Part shown: one piece after another, positions 3,027 through 17,217 of the stretch | How positions within the stretch are numbered: the first letter of the stretch is position 1 | Layout: every line of letters starts with the position of its first letter | Source of the DNA: Planctomycetota bacterium | Lineage (GTDB): Bacteria; Planctomycetota; UBA8742; SKZP01; JAIOTL01 | Length of the DNA: 17,217 bases | Direction: 5' to 3' | Assembly (NCBI GenBank): GCA_021106775.1 | Contig: JAIOTL010000289.1 | Coordinates: 1 to 17,217, forward strand | The notes under the pieces: model-generated | Seen by the model: only the letters and a program-made list of their open reading frames with translations | Told to the model about the DNA's origin: nothing | The model's database searches: none | Translations under genes and position numbers: made by a program

Positions 3027-6000
3027 TTACTTTTTCTTGCCTTTACCTTTGCTTTTGCCTTTTCCCTTACCTTTACCCTTTGCACCTCCTTTTTTGCCCT
3101 TTGCGCCGCCTTTCTTTGCACCGGTTTTCTTTTGTCCGCCTTGTTTCTGAGGTTGTTTCTTAGGCTGAGCTTTTTTCTCCGGTTTCTCAGGTTCATCGGT
3201 TTTTTCAGGTTTTTCCTCTATCTTCACATCAGCTTTTTCCTCAGATTTTTCCTCTTTAACTTCAGGCTTAACCGATTTTTCCGCAGTCTCTTCAGCTAGA
3301 TTTTCATCCTCAACCGGTTTTACGGTTTCTTTATCAGCATTTTCATCCGTTTCTTTGGCTATGTAAGGCTCATCTTCTTTTTTCACAAATGAATCTGTTT
3401 TTTTCTCAGGCTTTTTCTTTCCTGTTTTGTCGGTCTTATGAGGAGAAACACTGGTTTTCACGAAATCATACCAGCTATATCCCCAAATCGCTAAGCCAAT
3501 AAATACAACTGAATAAAGTACCATTGACAGGAACGGTGCTTCACCAATATGTGGAAGTATGTTCATTGCTGGCACCCAAAAAACCACACCACCGAGGATA
3601 AAACCTGCGATACTTGCAGTTAGAATTAAACTCTTTGCTTTTTCCCATCTCGCAGTGAGAATCGGCGTAGCAATGAAAATCGATGAATAAGTACCAACGA
3701 GAACACCGATAAATAGTGTAAACGCAAAGCCTTCAAGCACTTGAGTACCGAGAAGCAAAAGCACGAACACCACCACAAACGTGGTGAAAGACGTAAGAAT
3801 CGTTCGGCTAAGAGTTTGGTTAACCGCAGTGTTTAGATGCGGTTTAATATCGATGTTCTTTTTCGTACCCACAAGGTTTTCTCTGACGCGGTCAAACACA
3901 ACGATAGTATCATTCAATGAATAACCGATAATAGTCAGTAGTGCCGCTATAACCGTGAGGTCAATCTTGACGTTAACGATATCCAGCGCGTCGAACACAG
4001 CAATTGCACCCAGCGCGAACATAACATCGTGTGCCAGTGCCATAGTTGCTCCGAGACCATATTTGAAATTGCGGAAACGTACCCAAATGTAGATAATAAT
4101 GACGAGAAGCGAAATAATAATCGCCCAGGTTGCCTGTTCCTGCATATCCGAAGCGATTGTCTGCCCAATGACTTCCTGTCTTAAAAACGGCGACGGAACA
4201 CTTCTTGGTGTGTAACCTTCACCTCGATCGCTTGCATTCTTCGGATTAAGGAATAAATGAACCTCTTTTTCTATACTTATCACCATGTTTTCCGGGTTAG
4301 TCATAATGCTTACGTCGTCATCGGTCATGTCAGCAAACATCGTATCATCGCCGACCTCAATGACGAATCCCACGAGTTTGTTTTCATAATTCAGACGTAA
4401 TTCTTCGTTGGTCAATGTTCCGTAAGCTGTATTGAGCTGAGCAAGTTTATCAGGATTCGTACTGAATTCCTTCTTCTTCAACTTAAAAGCTTTCTCTATT
4501 TCTTCCGCATTGGTAGCTCTTTTGACACCGAGAATATCGAAATATTTATTATCCATGAGCAAGCCGGACTCGCGTTCAGCTTTGGTTACTTCCTTCGCAT
4601 CGATATTGACATGGTTGAAACCTTGCAGGTCTTCGAAAGCTTTCTTCAGTACCGAAACAAGGTTGTCCAGATGTTCATCGCGAAATTCATCTTTTCCGAA
4701 TGCAGGCTCAACATTGAAAGATACAAGCAGTTTCCCCTTATGCGGGAACGATTTTACATCGATTATTCTATCTGACAGTTTATTCTGTATATCTTTATCG
4801 TTTTCGCTGACAAATTCCTTGATGACACGCCTAAATTCGTCGGCTACGATTGTTCCCGACTTCTCTCCTTCAGCATTCGTAATAATCTTGTCGAATGTGC
4901 CGAACCTGACCGGCATATCCATCAGGTAAACTAACAGCTCATTATCAACATTTCTGAACTCAAATCTCGGAATCGGAAGTTTTTCCTGGGTTTCATCTGT
5001 TATTGCATCGTTGGCAGCGAAGTTTTCTTCGATAACTTCATAAATGTATTTATCATCAGATATTTTCACTTCATCTTCTAAGTATATTGGTAATTCTGTC
5101 TTGATGAATTCCATTTCAGCACCGGTTAGTTGGTTGCTAAACGGAACCGTTATCTTGAACTGAACCGTATCCGATTTCCCAACGTATGCGTCAATTGCGG
5201 GTTGAACAAGCCGTGGCAGCGTATCACCATTGAATACGCGGTCAATGTCATTTTTCTTATTGCGTTTATCAACCTCGCGCCTAAGTTCAAGGTCTGTTGA
5301 TTCATCCGCTTTCTTCGATGGAAACGTAATAACGAATTGCGACGTATGTGAACCGCTTGAAATGACACCTTCGGGATAAGCAGCAATAATGCGGATATCA
5401 GGATATTTCGGTGCGTCCTGTTCGTCTTTCAGTTCTGCAAAACCTTTCCTGACATCGTCAACATCTGCTGATTCCTCCGTTACAACATGGAATTCCATAC
5501 CACCGAGGAAATCGATACCAAGATTTTCCGTGCCGCGAACACTGAAAATAACTAATCCGATGATGATGAGAATTGTTGAAAGAGAGAACATCGGTGCTCG
5601 TAATTTTAGGAAATTGAATTTTGGTGAACCGATCATCTGCAGCATCGAGAATTTTTTTATCGCTTTTACACTTACAAGGAAACCGATTAGGAACCTTGTT
5701 ACTAAAAGTGATGTGAACAGTGATGCTGAAATACCAATGATGAGAGTTATTGCAAAGCCCTGAATCTCCGCAGTTCCGACGAGTGCAAGGATGAACGCAG
5801 TAAGAATCGTTGTGATCTGAGCATCCAAAATTGTAACAATTGCTCTGTCAAAACCACGCTGTATTGCATCTTTCAAATTACCGGTCTTGCGTTTCTCCTC
5901 TCGAATACGTTCAAAAATTAAAATATTCGCGTCAATTGACATACCAATGGTCAGGATGATACCTGCAATACCGGGTAGTGTCATTGTCGCCTGAAACAGA

Positions 6001-7379
6001 ACCATAATTCCTAGAAGCAGGAAAAGGTTTGAAATAACGGCGAAATTTGCGATTAGACCGGCACCGAGATAATAGAACATGATGAATATGAGTACTACGG
6101 CACCACCGATAATTATTGCAATGACACCCTGTCGAATCGAGTTCTGACCAAGTTCCGCGCCTGTTGTGCTGTCACCTTCTTCGACTAGGGTAACAGGCAG
6201 AGAGCCGGCACTCAAGAGGTTAATCATTGAGTTTTGTTCGATAGCATCCTGAAATCCTGACATAACGCCGCGTCCGGGAATACGTCCGTCAATTGTCCCT
6301 GCCCAGAACACTTTTTCGTTAAAAATAACGCATAATCTCGGAGCATCGCTTTCAGGCGAATAGTTTTGTTTCTTATATTGTTCGGTAAATGTACCAAATT
6401 TGTTTTTATCTTTTTCCTTGAATTCAAATGCAACTTGTTTGCCCATATCGGAGCCTGTAGCTGCTTTAATTGATGCAAGATGGTCACCGCTTAAAAAATC
6501 AACATGGACTTTCGAATCGCTTGGTTTCCATGCTATCAACACATATTTTTGAGTATAAACGGTGTCCCATTCTTCTTGAACCTTGTAGCTGTCACCAGCA
6601 CTTGAGCCATCTTTCTGAATAGGATACCAGCGATATTCGCCGGCTTTGCTGTCAACAGGGAAATCTGGATATGTAACTTTACCTTTGTATTTGTTTGGAG
6701 CTTCCATGCGCCAGAAAAGCTGACCCGATGATTTGATGATTTTTTTAATATTTTCTTCGTTGCGGATTGCTTCGGGCAGAATTATCTGGACTCTATCCTC
6801 TCCGTATGGTCTGACAACAATACCACCGAGTTTGCTGGCATCGAGACGATTGCGAAGTACATCGCAGACTTTATTGACGGATTCTTTTTTATCTTTTTCG
6901 AAGTCATTTAGAATGCGTTTCAAATCCTGTTTTAACCGACTTAAATCTTTCACACTTTCAACGGCTCTTTCAAAGCTATCTATTAATTCCTTGTCTGTGC
7001 TGGATTCGAGTTCGTTAGCCTGCATATTTAAGTAGTTTTCTAAATCATCAAGTTGACCATGATCAAGTCTATTGATAACTCTTTCGATATTTTGTGCATT
7101 TGCACCAATTTCCTCGTAAACTTCTGGGTAATCCTCACTTAAAACTTCTAAACTGTTTTGAAGTGAATTCTTATAGCCCTGGATTTCCGAGTTTTTCTGC
7201 TCTACTTCAACATTTTGAAGCGTATAAACGAGCCTGCTTCCACCCCGCAAATCAGTACCAAAACGTAAGTTTAATCCGAGAAAACCTTTGTTTCCTGGGA
7301 AACCAAGAAATGAAATAACAACAGCGACTGCAATAATCAGAATTACAGTGAGTAATTTCCATTGAACGTTCTGAAACAT
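3027..7379 (-). CDS. secDF: Fused protein translocase subunit SecDF with enlarged periplasmic loop and Lys-rich tail
   Basis: This is a 1450-residue inner-membrane fusion of SecD and SecF, which use the proton gradient to help pull proteins across the Sec channel. AAGGAG stands a few bases before ATG 7379. The SecD half has TM1 (8-26), GTDLRGGSRLVY (41-52), a charged helical insertion (about 60-170), the P1 domain (about 171-226 onward), and TM2-6 with GMSIDANILIFERIREE (479-495). The SecF half begins with TM near 597-614 and LGIDFLGGMEF (620-630). It closes with its TM block (1082-1245) containing IGYSLNDTIVVFDRVREN (1151-1168). The SecF periplasmic loop is about 450 residues against about 100 in E. 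coli and contains a J-domain-like stretch at 944-1001. Two extra hydrophobic segments (about 1249-1270, 1283-1303) precede a charged tail (1307-1450) that ends as almost pure Lys/Gly. SecD plus SecF in E. coli total about 940 residues. The fusion has no internal stop. It lies downstream of yajC, as is typical. Confidence 0.96.
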   Translation of the reverse strand: MFQNVQWKLLTVILIIAVAVVISFLGFPGNKGFLGLNLRFGTDLRGGSRLVYTLQNVEVEQKNSEIQGYKNSLQNSLEVLSEDYPEVYEEIGANAQNIERVINRLDHGQLDDLENYLNMQANELESSTDKELIDSFERAVESVKDLSRLKQDLKRILNDFEKDKKESVNKVCDVLRNRLDASKLGGIVVRPYGEDRVQIILPEAIRNEENIKKIIKSSGQLFWRMEAPNKYKGKVTYPDFPVDSKAGEYRWYPIQKDGSSAGDSYKVQEEWDTVYTQKYVLIAWKPSDSKVHVDFLSGDHLASIKAATGSDMGKQVAFEFKEKDKNKFGTFTEQYKKQNYSPESDAPRLCVIFNEKVFWAGTIDGRIPGRGVMSGFQDAIEQNSMINLLSAGSLPVTLVEEGDSTTGAELGQNSIRQGVIAIIIGGAVVLIFIMFYYLGAGLIANFAVISNLFLLLGIMVLFQATMTLPGIAGIILTIGMSIDANILIFERIREEKRKTGNLKDAIQRGFDRAIVTILDAQITTILTAFILALVGTAEIQGFAITLIIGISASLFTSLLVTRFLIGFLVSVKAIKKFSMLQMIGSPKFNFLKLRAPMFSLSTILIIIGLVIFSVRGTENLGIDFLGGMEFHVVTEESADVDDVRKGFAELKDEQDAPKYPDIRIIAAYPEGVISSGSHTSQFVITFPSKKADESTDLELRREVDKRNKKNDIDRVFNGDTLPRLVQPAIDAYVGKSDTVQFKITVPFSNQLTGAEMEFIKTELPIYLEDEVKISDDKYIYEVIEENFAANDAITDETQEKLPIPRFEFRNVDNELLVYLMDMPVRFGTFDKIITNAEGEKSGTIVADEFRRVIKEFVSENDKDIQNKLSDRIIDVKSFPHKGKLLVSFNVEPAFGKDEFRDEHLDNLVSVLKKAFEDLQGFNHVNIDAKEVTKAERESGLLMDNKYFDILGVKRATNAEEIEKAFKLKKKEFSTNPDKLAQLNTAYGTLTNEELRLNYENKLVGFVIEVGDDTMFADMTDDDVSIMTNPENMVISIEKEVHLFLNPKNASDRGEGYTPRSVPSPFLRQEVIGQTIASDMQEQATWAIIISLLVIIIYIWVRFRNFKYGLGATMALAHDVMFALGAIAVFDALDIVNVKIDLTVIAALLTIIGYSLNDTIVVFDRVRENLVGTKKNIDIKPHLNTAVNQTLSRTILTSFTTFVVVFVLLLLGTQVLEGFAFTLFIGVLVGTYSSIFIATPILTARWEKAKSLILTASIAGFILGGVVFWVPAMNILPHIGEAPFLSMVLYSVVFIGLAIWGYSWYDFVKTSVSPHKTDKTGKKKPEKKTDSFVKKEDEPYIAKETDENADKETVKPVEDENLAEETAEKSVKPEVKEEKSEEKADVKIEEKPEKTDEPEKPEKKAQPKKQPQKQGGQKKTGAKKGGAKGKKGGAKGKGKGKGKSKGKGKKK

Positions 7380-7481: not shown

Positions 7482-7886
7482 TTAAAGCGATAGGTCTTCC
7501 GAAGGACAAGTCTTGCGAAATCTTGATTGAAAGGTTGAAATAAAACCAGATGCATGTAAATCTCGGATGAAATTCTGTTGAGAAATTTTGAAATTACGAA
7601 CAAATCCTCTTCCGCTGTCCGCTTTTCTGTTTTTGCTCGATGAATCACTTAATTGATACTGTAGAGTTGAAATAAAATATAAGACATTATTTCCATTATC
7701 ACCGAGACGCGATTCATCCTGAGAATGCTGAAAACTGACATTGCATTTCGCAAAATCGAGCTCGATAATCTTTGTGTTTACGTCATTTATGCAATACGCA
7801 ACGAGAAAAAGTGCAAACAAGAACGTTAGCACAGGCAAGCCTCTTTTTACCCAAAACATCGTCAGCAGGTCAAATAATTTTTGCAT
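7482..7886 (-). CDS. Small single-pass membrane protein of unknown function between yajC and secDF
   Basis: An open frame of 134 codons runs from ATG 7886. The frame is open further upstream to a TTG at 7970, but that start would overlap yajC. I prefer ATG 7886, 43 bp after the yajC stop, although only a weak AGGA precedes it and it abuts the ATG. One strong hydrophobic segment (about residues 16-33, GLPVLTFLFALFLVAYCI) follows a short basic N-terminus. The rest is polar, with Ser/Asn/Arg-rich stretches and three cysteines (32, 48, 127). I recognise no family. Its position inside the yajC-secDF cluster suggests a small envelope protein anchored by its N-terminus, but this is inference. Support for it being a real gene is the co-directional placement filling an otherwise empty 550-bp gap; absence of a good ribosome site counts against it. 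Confidence 0.5.
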   Translation of the reverse strand: MQKLFDLLTMFWVKRGLPVLTFLFALFLVAYCINDVNTKIIELDFAKCNVSFQHSQDESRLGDNGNNVLYFISTLQYQLSDSSSKNRKADSGRGFVRNFKISQQNFIRDLHASGFISTFQSRFRKTCPSEDLSL

Positions 7887-7929
7887 CCTAATGATTATGC
7901 TGTGAGAAAGGCGGAAAGTCTGTTCTATT

Positions 7930-8289
7930 CTACGATTCAACTTCTTCTTCCTTTGTCTCAGCTCTGTCAATTATATGAACAATCGCACCCTTAACAACAG
8001 TAACTCGTGTGTTATTACCTTCATCGATTTTAAGCACGACTTCGTTGTCCTTTATTTTCGTTACAAAACCGATTAGTCCGCCTGTAGTCATAACCTTATC
8101 ATTTTTAGAAAGCTCTCTGCGCATTGACTCAAGCGCTTTTTGTTTCTTCGACTGAGGACGAATCATAAAGAAATACATCACGACAAAAAGCATACCAATC
8201 ATCAGAACCATCGAAAGCAATCCGCCTGAAGCGTCCTGTGCTGGTGCATCCTGAGCAAAAATAAGTGCATTAATAATATTTTGATACAT
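7930..8289 (-). CDS. yajC: Preprotein translocase subunit YajC
   Basis: The protein has 119 residues, the usual YajC length. A single transmembrane helix (about 24-43) ends in the family signature YFFMIRPQSKKQKA, followed by the small basic domain with KNDKVMTTGGLIGFVTKIKDNEVVLKID. YajC associates with SecDF and YidC at the inner membrane as an accessory of the Sec translocon. The start at ATG 8289 is preceded by AGGAAA about 11 nt upstream, an extended spacing. It is the first recognised gene of the yajC, small membrane protein, secDF cluster and probably shares a promoter near 8427-8454. Confidence 0.95.
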   Translation of the reverse strand: MYQNIINALIFAQDAPAQDASGGLLSMVLMIGMLFVVMYFFMIRPQSKKQKALESMRRELSKNDKVMTTGGLIGFVTKIKDNEVVLKIDEGNNTRVTVVKGAIVHIIDRAETKEEEVES

Positions 8290-8997: not shown

Positions 8998-10158
8998 TTA
9001 ATCCCCAAGCTCAAGAATGCTAAGGTGCCTGCCTTCAAAATTCTTTACTTCAATCTTAATCTTCTGCTCAAGCTTCAATTTCTTGATAAACTTCAGATGT
9101 GCTTCAACAGGATGCCATTTGCCTTTGTCATTCTTTGCCCAGCCTGTGAAAATTATGACCTTTTTACCAATAACCGATGCAGTATTCTTTGCTTTGCTGT
9201 CTTTCCATACCGTGGGAACACCCGTAGCCTTTAGCACAAAACCATTGTCCAATTTTTTCACAACAAAACCTTCGAGAACTCCTGAAAAGCCTATCATTCC
9301 TTCAGGAATCTCATATTCTTTCTTCCAATCCTTCTCGGGCTTTTCTTCTTTCTTATCTTCCTTTTTCTCCGCGAGTGCACGTTGTTCTTTGTTTAGCTCA
9401 AGAATATGCAACCGCTCACCTTCGATATTCTTAACCTCGATACTGATTTTATTCCCGATTTTCAGCATTTCAACAAATCTTGCATGTAGAGGAATCGGTC
9501 GCCATTTACTTTTTTCATATTCTTCCCAGCCCACGTTAATTAGAACCTTTTTGCCAATAACAGTCTCAGGTTTTTTCGCTTTGTTGCCTTCCCAGAGTTT
9601 TTCAACCTTTTCAACCAACAGTATGAATCCGTTTTTCTGCTTTCCAACAACCTTACCTTTAAGCCTTCCTGAAAAACCATGCATCCCATCAGGTATCACA
9701 GGTTTCATTTCTTTAGGTTCATCTTTTTTCTTTGTACCTTTTTTAACGAATTCTCTTTGATCACCGGTCAATTCAAGGAAGAAAATCTTGTTTCCGTCAT
9801 ATCTCACATCAATTTCAAATTTAGCACCCATTTCAAGTTTTCTGATGTATGCTACCAGCATTTCATCGAGTACAAATGTGCCCTTTTTAGTTTTAACCTT
9901 CCTGAAATAAACTCTGATTTGCTTTCCTACAGATTCCGCATAATCGTCGCATTTATTATGTTTCCACGTTTTTAAAACCTCTTTCACTTCAAAAAGGAAA
10001 CCGTTGTCGAGCTTTTTAATTAATTTCCCATAAAGCATACCCGCGAAACCTTTTAGGCATTTTGGGGCATTTCCTTCATCCGCTTTCTCTTTGTCACCAG
10101 TGAAAGCGGGAATAGAAAATAATGAAACAATCACAATGATAGCCAGAAATCTACGCAT
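8998..10158 (-). CDS. Exported protein of three ~98-residue repeats, function unknown
   Basis: The protein has 386 residues from ATG 10158. An ATG at 10170 is in frame, but it lies within the GGAGGA ribosome site, which is ideally spaced for 10158. Residues 1-21 (MRRFLAIIVIVSLFSIPAFTG) look like a signal peptide, so the product should be exported. Three tandem repeats cover about 33-134, 160-257 and 288-385. Each starts with GF(A/S)G-L-G and then NGF(L/I/V), W, (V/I)GK(K/Q), a Lys/Gly turn, (K)L-G-K-(I/F)-I-V, and a closing (L/I)-LEL. Repeats 2 and 3 are most alike. Linkers are Lys/Glu-rich. The beta-rich pattern could be an OB-like or other small barrel, but I recognise no named family. It follows the radical SAM gene by 66 bp on the same strand. 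Confidence 0.8.
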   Translation of the reverse strand: MRRFLAIIVIVSLFSIPAFTGDKEKADEGNAPKCLKGFAGMLYGKLIKKLDNGFLFEVKEVLKTWKHNKCDDYAESVGKQIRVYFRKVKTKKGTFVLDEMLVAYIRKLEMGAKFEIDVRYDGNKIFFLELTGDQREFVKKGTKKKDEPKEMKPVIPDGMHGFSGRLKGKVVGKQKNGFILLVEKVEKLWEGNKAKKPETVIGKKVLINVGWEEYEKSKWRPIPLHARFVEMLKIGNKISIEVKNIEGERLHILELNKEQRALAEKKEDKKEEKPEKDWKKEYEIPEGMIGFSGVLEGFVVKKLDNGFVLKATGVPTVWKDSKAKNTASVIGKKVIIFTGWAKNDKGKWHPVEAHLKFIKKLKLEQKIKIEVKNFEGRHLSILELGD

Positions 10159-10224
10159 TTTATCCTCCAATTCTTAAAAGAAACTTAATTTAGTATAACT
10201 AATCCCATCATTAAATAAGAATTA

Positions 10225-14894: not shown

Positions 14895-17217
14895 CTAATT
14901 AAAAAGCCTTGAAATATCGTTATATAAGACAAGGATTATCAATAAACCTATGATGATAAGACCGAGTGCATTGAAATAACCCATCATTCGGTCGCTGAGT
15001 TTTTTGCCACGAATCTTTTCAACGAAGATGAACATCAAAGCACCGCCGTCAAACACAGGGATAGGCAGGATATTGAGTATCGCAAGATTAATGGACAACA
15101 ACGCCATGAAGTAGATTAATTTTCCCAGACCGAGCTTTGCAACCTTATACGATGCCTGTGCAATAAGGATTGGGCCACCGATGTTCTTTGAGCTTATTCG
15201 TGCAGAAATCACAGATTTTATGGTCATTACGACCATTTTCGCAAACACCCATGTTTTCTGCATACCCATCACAATTGCTTCGCCAAACGGGTATTTTATG
15301 TCGATGTATCCTTGCATCGGCGAGAATCCAATGAGGTTTTTGTAGACATAGATATCCGGCGTGAATGCAGATGTGCTGAATGTTATCGTAACTTCCTTCA
15401 TTTTGCCATCATCACCTGCAATTATTCTCAAAACCTTGATTTCAACAGGGTCACACAGAGGAATTTCCGAAGTTTTATCGTTATTTTTCCATGATTTGAG
15501 CGCGATTGTGTTGATATCAGTGATATTTTTATCGTTACTATCACCTGTTGGATTCCAGCTTGTTACCTTAGTTTTCTTGACTTCGATGATTTTGTCACCT
15601 GCAAGAATTCGATGATTTATCTTTTTTCGTTCATCAACCGTAATATCTCCAATTGAAGACAGGATTTTGAATTTCGCACCCGGATCTACACCTTTCACAG
15701 TTAAATCAGTGTTGATTTTGTCTGTATCGTCCAAATCAGGAAGAAATTCAAATTGTGCGCATCCGGTTGTTGTATCAGCGGAAGGCACGACAAACAAAGT
15801 TTCCACATTCTGCTTATTAGCGTCATCAGCATTTCGCAAAACTTTAATGAGGGATTTTTCACCGGGAACAAGCTTGCGGATTTCCCTGCGTAACATTTCA
15901 AACGATGTCGCTGCAATCCCGTTTACTTCGATTATTGTATCACCAGCAAGAATTGGTGCTGATGCTCCTTCAACCCATTCACCTTCTTTCAGAATTGCAA
16001 TCTTGGCTTCATCAGCAGGTCCACCTTTTTTGACAGATTTAATAGGCACATTCGGGTACATGTCAATCCCGAAACTGACACCTGTATGACGATTAAACAA
16101 CGTTATTCCCTGCAAATCAAAGATTTTGCCATTGCGATTAATTTTTAGCGTAACTTTATCACCTGTTACACGATTCAAAATCTCTCGTAAACTTGCATAA
16201 CTTCTGATTCTCGGATTAGACAAATTTTCCTGCTCATTTGGCTTAATCTCAGTGATTTCCTGCACGGGATCGCCTACATAGTCTACGCTGTGAATTGCCA
16301 TATCTTTTACACCGATTATCACGTCACCTTCGCGCAACTCACCAGGTTTATCTTCATGACCTTTGATTTTAATTATGCCCTTGAGAGCATCTTTGCGCTC
16401 GTTCATGATTTCTCCGACACGCGTACTTATAACAGGCTCCAAACCTATTGACGCAAAGCCGAGTGAATCATTGTATTCAGGTTTCAATGTGAATATCAGT
16501 GGTTTGTCAGATCCTGGACGTTGTACTTCAAGCACAAGTTCTTCGTCTTCTTCAGAAAATGCGACTCCAACCTGTAAATCTGTGAATTCAGAGATTTCTT
16601 TGCCATTCATTTTTATGATTTTGTCGCCAGGTTTCAGACCCGATTTCCATGCTGGTGTTTCAACTTCTTTTCCATTTGCAGTCATCATAGGTTGAATTCC
16701 GCCTACACCCGGAAAAACCGACGGGACACCCATGCCGAAAGCGATGATGAATAGGATAAATGCTGAAATTGCGTTGAATGTTACACCAGCAACGATAACC
16801 ATCGCCCTTGAGCCAGCACTTTTATTAAGGAACTGATCTTTTAAATCTCTTTTTTTCTTGTCGTTTTCAAACTCACCAGCCATTTTTACATATCCACCGA
16901 GCCAGAATAACGAGGCAACATATTCAGTTTCCGATGCATCATAAATCAGGATTTTATTCTCACCTTTTGCACTATATTCTGCAATTTTATCGGGTGTCAG
17001 CAGTTCTGCACCAAGTTTTTCGTTCTTATCATCGCTTTCATCGAATTTAACAGCAACCATTCCTTCCGTTACTTTGGAAAGCGGGTATTTCCGCATACGC
17101 AGACGTTTAGTACGCACTAGCCATTCAAGGTCTTCTGTCGATTCAAGCATATCCTCGGTGATAGTATCTTTATATTTAAAATTCGGGTCTTTGGGTTTCC
17201 AGGGATATTTTGGGATC
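14895..17217 (-). CDS. RseP-type site-2 intramembrane metalloprotease with about four PDZ-like domains, N-terminus cut by window edge
   Basis: The frame is open to the right edge (774 complete codons visible). An internal Met at 17150 is probably not the start, because the HExxH-bearing first helix is missing and should lie beyond the edge. Numbering from 17150: LGGYVKMAGE (84-93), NKSAGSRAMVIVAG and N126 with the following membrane helix (about 113-142). Next come PDZ-like modules around 150-225, 270-352, 360-455 and 484-592, each with an (E/A)GDxII(x)V or PGDKII core. The C-terminal block has NIGGPILIAQ (656), the metal-binding NILPIPVFDGG (693-703) and a last helix (729-746). This family cuts transmembrane proteins within the membrane, for example anti-sigma factors in envelope stress. 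Usual members have one or two PDZ domains and about 450 residues, so this one is enlarged. The usual His after DGG is Ala here. Confidence 0.9.
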   Translation of the reverse strand, partial: IPKYPWKPKDPNFKYKDTITEDMLESTEDLEWLVRTKRLRMRKYPLSKVTEGMVAVKFDESDDKNEKLGAELLTPDKIAEYSAKGENKILIYDASETEYVASLFWLGGYVKMAGEFENDKKKRDLKDQFLNKSAGSRAMVIVAGVTFNAISAFILFIIAFGMGVPSVFPGVGGIQPMMTANGKEVETPAWKSGLKPGDKIIKMNGKEISEFTDLQVGVAFSEEDEELVLEVQRPGSDKPLIFTLKPEYNDSLGFASIGLEPVISTRVGEIMNERKDALKGIIKIKGHEDKPGELREGDVIIGVKDMAIHSVDYVGDPVQEITEIKPNEQENLSNPRIRSYASLREILNRVTGDKVTLKINRNGKIFDLQGITLFNRHTGVSFGIDMYPNVPIKSVKKGGPADEAKIAILKEGEWVEGASAPILAGDTIIEVNGIAATSFEMLRREIRKLVPGEKSLIKVLRNADDANKQNVETLFVVPSADTTTGCAQFEFLPDLDDTDKINTDLTVKGVDPGAKFKILSSIGDITVDERKKINHRILAGDKIIEVKKTKVTSWNPTGDSNDKNITDINTIALKSWKNNDKTSEIPLCDPVEIKVLRIIAGDDGKMKEVTITFSTSAFTPDIYVYKNLIGFSPMQGYIDIKYPFGEAIVMGMQKTWVFAKMVVMTIKSVISARISSKNIGGPILIAQASYKVAKLGLGKLIYFMALLSINLAILNILPIPVFDGGALMFIFVEKIRGKKLSDRMMGYFNALGLIIIGLLIILVLYNDISRLFN

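Follow-up and report, generated by a model that had tools for sequence, protein, structure and literature searches.

A SecDF export protein was found to carry, within the large loop of its SecF half, a segment that is homologous to the J-domains of DnaJ and lacks their HPD tripeptide. The protein is a SecD–SecF fusion of 1450 aa, encoded on the minus strand (3027..7379) of the window, i.e., the whole 17,217-nucleotide stretch of DNA analyzed here, and the homologous segment covers residues 944–1001 (4377..4550, minus strand; also given as 4383..4547, residues 945–999). The homology, the place of the segment in the protein, and the absence of HPD could each be read from the sequence. From these, and from the known topology of SecDF, we infer a degenerate J-fold in an expanded P4 loop on the periplasmic side, which most likely does not stimulate Hsp70 and would serve as a helical docking surface; we assign this reading a probability of about 0.55.

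The identity of the host protein was established from its open reading frame and its SecD and SecF profile matches. Its frame is open throughout all 1450 codons (ORF list). In a Pfam profile search, SecD_SecF_C (E 3.2e-75) and SecDF_P1_head scored above cut-off and SecD_1st and Sec_GG below it, while the NCBIfam models gave 373.3 bits for secD (TIGR01129; cut-off 244.4) and 331 bits for secF (TIGR00966; cut-off 160). The best solved relative was SecDF 3aqp (E 8.7e-79, PDB sequence search), which we take to be the Thermus thermophilus protein, and like the fusion it has a SecD and a SecF half, with the SecD_SecF_C regions matched in both. A hydropathy scan placed hydrophobic segments at residues 9–27, in a cluster at 418–560, at 596–614, and in a second cluster at 1082–1236. 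SecD and SecF domains are fused, and the transmembrane segments follow the SecDF order (NCBIfam and hydropathy). A yajC gene lies upstream on the same strand (7933..8289, minus strand; TIGR00739 82.9 bits, cut-off 44.2).

The J-bearing loop corresponds to P4, the periplasmic domain of the SecF half (residues 615–1081; 4137..5537, minus strand), delimited in the hydropathy scan by TM7 (596–614) and TM8 (1082–1100). By known SecDF topology, P4 faces the periplasm, in agreement with the location proposed for the segment in an earlier, sequence-only note. SecDF profile and structure matches were found on both sides of this loop (NCBIfam, 3aqp). At ~467 residues and with a J-like segment inside, P4 is far longer here than in 3aqp: the gap between the two main matched stretches spans ~415 residues (648 to 1063), compared to ~50 (501 to 550) in the solved structure.

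Several comparisons linked the segment to J-domains. On a 61-residue piece, PF00226 reached 30.8 bits (E 3.3e-7), above its curated cut-off of 27.8, with an alignment spanning model positions 1–63; a 168-aa piece scored 26.7 bits (E 6e-6) and the full SecDF 21.0 bits (E 3.6e-4), the latter under the cut-off; in keeping with this, the precomputed Pfam annotation of the SecDF does not include PF00226. Among NCBIfam models, those for bacterial DnaJ matched both pieces (TIGR02349 at E 1.6e-5 on the short one), and the matches shown for the full SecDF, 25 out of 31, included none of them. Profile–profile alignment (hhalign) of eight DnaJ J-domains with residues 930–1020 yielded a probability of 95.2% (E 2.6e-8). 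The match to PF00226, proposed as a check in the earlier note, thus exceeds the curated threshold on the isolated piece and falls short of it in the full-length protein. With the J-like segment as query, 30 of 33 PDB sequence matches at E ≤ 10 were named DnaJ, Hsp40, Sis1, or dnj; two others had uninformative names, and presumably represent DNAJC16 and DNAJB3, and one was unrelated (E 0.55). A tblastn search against plasmids returned 29 places (E 7e-5 to 10), of which 26 carry a DnaJ or J-domain protein annotation and 3 carry none.

These matches were then set against controls, using a profile of our own for which 33 J-domains (HPD present in 32) were taken from loci of the phylum of an Epsilonproteobacteria genome. 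This profile gave 30.2 bits on the piece and 21.4 on the full SecDF, compared to 4.2 on the reversed piece and at most 16.4 across 10,000 shuffles (9,971 of which returned a score). In any window elsewhere in the same SecDF it gave ≤3.1 bits, and for the 119 listed relatives ≤2.7 bits on whole proteins and ≤7.3 bits across 13,030 windows (63 residues each, taken every 9 residues). Likewise, 200 shuffles reached ≤5.6% and the reversed piece 2.6% in hhalign, against 95.2% for the segment. Since shuffled, reversed, and other-SecDF controls all scored far lower, we consider the homology of residues ~944–1001 to DnaJ J-domains well supported at the sequence level, as the earlier note had suggested on seeing this peptide; chance resemblance was ruled out by the same controls. 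A helical P4 element that came to resemble a J-domain by convergence would account for the full-protein PF00226 score under the curated cut-off and for a structure model of low confidence (see below). However, PF00226, the NCBIfam DnaJ models, our own HMM, hhalign, and the PDB and plasmid searches all agree, and with the best shuffle at 16.4 vs 30.2 bits and hhalign shuffles at ≤5.6% vs 95.2%, the controls already make convergence unlikely.

Helices I–IV of the segment all align with J-domains (PF00226, hhalign), and do so over the whole PF00226 model. The four equivalents, assigned from the J alignment and from low-confidence helices of a single-sequence AlphaFold2 model, are all on the minus strand: helix I at residues 944–950 (NKYFDIL, followed by GV; 4530..4550), a lysine-rich helix II at 958–974 (4458..4508), helix III at 976–986 (PDKLAQLNTAY; 4422..4454), and helix IV at 991–1002 (NEELRLNYENKL; 4374..4409). 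Residues aligned at J positions are Y946, L950, G951, V952, I961, A964, F965, L979, L982, A985, Y986, L989, R995, and Y998, which we take to be typical J core positions. For residues 930–1020, the model (pLDDT 51, pTM 0.35) predicted helices at 944–950, 958–974, 976–986, and 991–1002, plus a short one at 933–937. These fall in J-domain order, yet given such confidence values the model supports little.

What sets the segment apart from DnaJ/Hsp40 J-domains, beyond its location in a SecDF and, by topology, in the periplasm, is the loop between helices II and III. There is no HPD in this loop; STNPDK stands in its place (residues 973–978; 4446..4463, minus strand), and both the own-profile and the hhalign alignments bear out this substitution, which had been noticed earlier. 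The helix II–III spacing is 8 residues shorter than in the DnaJ profile (8 gap columns in hhalign), and the own-profile alignment shows 10 deleted and 2 inserted columns in this loop. With ungapped spacing from helix II, S-T-N stands at the HPD place (read from the sequence; compare hhalign), while the own-profile HMM alignment puts N-P-D-K opposite H-P-D-K after a two-residue insertion; the HPD histidine is lost in either alignment. Because STNPDK replaces HPD, we refer to the segment as “J-like” rather than as a canonical J-domain protein.

Next, we evaluated the occurrence of the J-like segment among relatives. An initial protein search scored 7,999 candidates, 6,313 of them at E ≤ 0.001, and the best 120 of these 6,313 were listed, own protein included. 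Our own J profile detected the segment in none (0/119) of the other SecDFs among the matches listed. The nearest of these, P0002 (1340 aa, from a Planctomycetota MAG), is 40% identical overall and was placed as sister of the SecDF fusion with a support of 1.0 in a midpoint-rooted tree of the fusion and 67 of the 119 listed relatives; it displayed no J segment by our own J profile or by hhalign (0.1%). A multiple alignment did fill 17–48 of the 58 J columns in the 67 relatives, but with unrelated P4 residues, and was rejected as evidence of homology. Searches restricted to residues 840–1056 (603 candidates) or 941–1003 (20 candidates) returned only the SecDF protein itself from 5.8 billion proteins. 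These searches are word-based and require shared five-residue words, so that diverged J-bearing SecDFs could be missed. In two scans of genome contigs, close SecDF relatives were absent from the first, and the second produced a single Epsilonproteobacteria locus (L001) whose best segment is 30% identical to the fusion; its two plus-strand open frames of >400 codons, the only ones scored, gave ≤0.4 bits with our own J profile. The sharing of this segment with related SecDFs, which the earlier note had put forward as a source of support, was therefore not observed: the J-bearing SecDF is a singleton on a single 17-kb contig, i.e., so far a lead and no family. Consistent with the remark in the same note that no SecDF with such a module was known, we found no description of a J-domain within SecDF in the open-licence papers searched.

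As no second J-bearing SecDF was found, conservation, which would be the strongest indication of function, is not available as an argument. The main rival to a docking role is that the segment represents a fragment of a J-domain that landed in a tolerant P4 loop and is decaying there without any role. In favor of such a neutral passenger, the segment occurs only once among the matches found, HPD and 8 residues are missing, and P4 is a long region whose length differs widely (between 101 and 514 residues within the aligned span, as counted in 67 of the 119 relatives listed). Against this, the alignment with J-domains still extends over the four helices and the core residues, and the frame remains open through 1450 residues. 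We regard a decaying passenger as possible, although clearly less probable than a docking surface.

The route by which the segment reached P4 was examined from alignment and composition. Leaving the J segment out of the alignment of P4 with P0002 brought no improvement (29 vs 28 with the segment), while values of up to 44 were reached when 60-residue stretches elsewhere were omitted, and P4 around the segment is not alignable with P0002. An origin by insertion into P4 is what we would tentatively propose; the comparison with P0002 supports neither this event nor a particular point of entry. The segment has a third-position GC that is ordinary for the gene (0.367 vs 0.391 ± 0.065 in 60-codon windows), while overall GC (0.356) lies at the low end of the gene, with 6.8% of 60-codon windows as low or lower. 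A recent foreign insertion finds no support in third-position GC, but may still have occurred, given that overall GC is low for the gene. These data also bear on an assembly artefact, in which a J-domain gene fragment would have been joined into secDF in one contig. Both the restriction to a single protein on a single contig and the low overall GC would fit such a misjoin. However, third-position GC is ordinary, no repeats of at least 12 bases occur in 4200–4800, and an in-frame misjoin that happened to bring a J segment already devoid of HPD would be unlikely; overall, we consider an artefact very improbable.

Taken together, we favor a degenerate J-domain that was grafted into P4, the expanded loop of SecF, and would lie in the periplasm, i.e., in trans; it would have retained helices I–IV and its core residues while the Hsp70-contacting HPD loop was shortened and replaced. 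With this loop altered, the segment is most likely unable to stimulate Hsp70 in the standard way. Most likely it instead offers the export motor a compact, helical surface for docking, retained or put to new use, for a periplasmic partner (a chaperone, an emerging chain, or an envelope factor) or for the rest of P4. A docking role is made plausible by analogies to Sec63, Pam16, and a proposed interaction of SecDF with SurA. Sec63 bears an HPD-containing J-domain and a Brl domain and is not an RND-type proton-driven protein. The J-domain of Sec63 is reported to recruit and activate lumenal BiP at the ER channel (PMC13261788). It acts on the lumenal (trans) side of a Sec channel, as the segment described here would on the periplasmic side, with the difference that the one in Sec63 recruits and activates BiP, and the one described here is without HPD (hhalign); the Sec63 family was also absent from the Pfam matches to the full SecDF, of which 11 were listed up to E 10, a range in which HMMER filters may drop weak matches. 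Pam16/Tim16 is reported as an HPD-less J-like subunit of the mitochondrial import motor (PMC12953747), and thus combines, like the SecDF fusion, a missing HPD with a place in a machine for protein translocation. We take this as a functional analogy only, since Pam16 is a protein of its own, partnered by Pam18 and acting on mtHsp70. Finally, SecDF periplasmic domains have been proposed to recruit the chaperone SurA (PMC9987972).

The same comparisons could be read differently, i.e., the segment may still act with Hsp70, either through an exported Hsp70-like protein or by pairing with an HPD-bearing J-protein in the manner of Pam16–Pam18, to form a trans-side chaperone ratchet. Its architecture resembles Sec63/BiP and Pam16/Pam18, helix II is lysine-rich, and N-P-D-K occupies the H-P-D-K place in one of the alignments. 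Yet HPD is absent and no supply of ATP is known in the periplasm, and we deem a remaining coupling to Hsp70 improbable. A bolder reading, which we offer as speculation and hold to be doubtful, is that the export motor evolved its own trans-side J-like module in parallel to Sec63/BiP and Pam16/Pam18, through which the proton-driven SecDF would bring a chaperone or other partner in the periplasm to chains as they leave SecYEG. At the far side of the ER translocon a J-domain recruits Hsp70, while in bacteria the corresponding place is taken by SecDF, together with the proton gradient. A SecDF with a J-like domain would connect these solutions; it would also suggest that, beyond a bacterial membrane, the J-fold lends itself to uses independent of Hsp70.

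Two additional features of the SecDF fusion were observed at its C-terminus, where it extends past the last usual SecF segment and differs further from 3aqp. Beyond this segment, two extra hydrophobic segments were detected by hydropathy (residues 1251–1269 and 1281–1299; 3483–3629, minus strand), and the protein ends in a Lys/Gly-rich tail with 15 K/R among its final 30 residues (3030–3173, minus strand). A content of at least 14 K/R in the final 30 residues was reached by 1 of the 120 SecDFs compared, namely the fusion itself, and the Planctomycetota relative P0002 has a similar tail with 13. Some YidC proteins carry ribosome-binding tails, to which the tail of SecDF may be likened.

Other features noticed in the window also lie on the minus strand. 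Between yajC and secDF, and overlapping the end of yajC, lies a 162-aa ORF (7482–7970) in which a single hydrophobic stretch was noted by eye and Pfam gave nothing up to E 0.01; it may encode a small membrane protein or be no gene. A 390-aa protein (8998–10170) contains three stretches that look similar by eye (GFxGxLxG...NGF), and it was matched neither by NCBIfam (up to E 1e-5) nor by Pfam (up to E 0.01). An OPT-family transporter (3–1691; PF03169 104.1 bits) reaches the edge of the window, and an RseP-type M50 protease is encoded at 14895–17150; at 751 aa, the latter is far longer than the RseP models that match it (421 and 450 positions) and displays PDZ matches, with PDZ_2 in two stretches.
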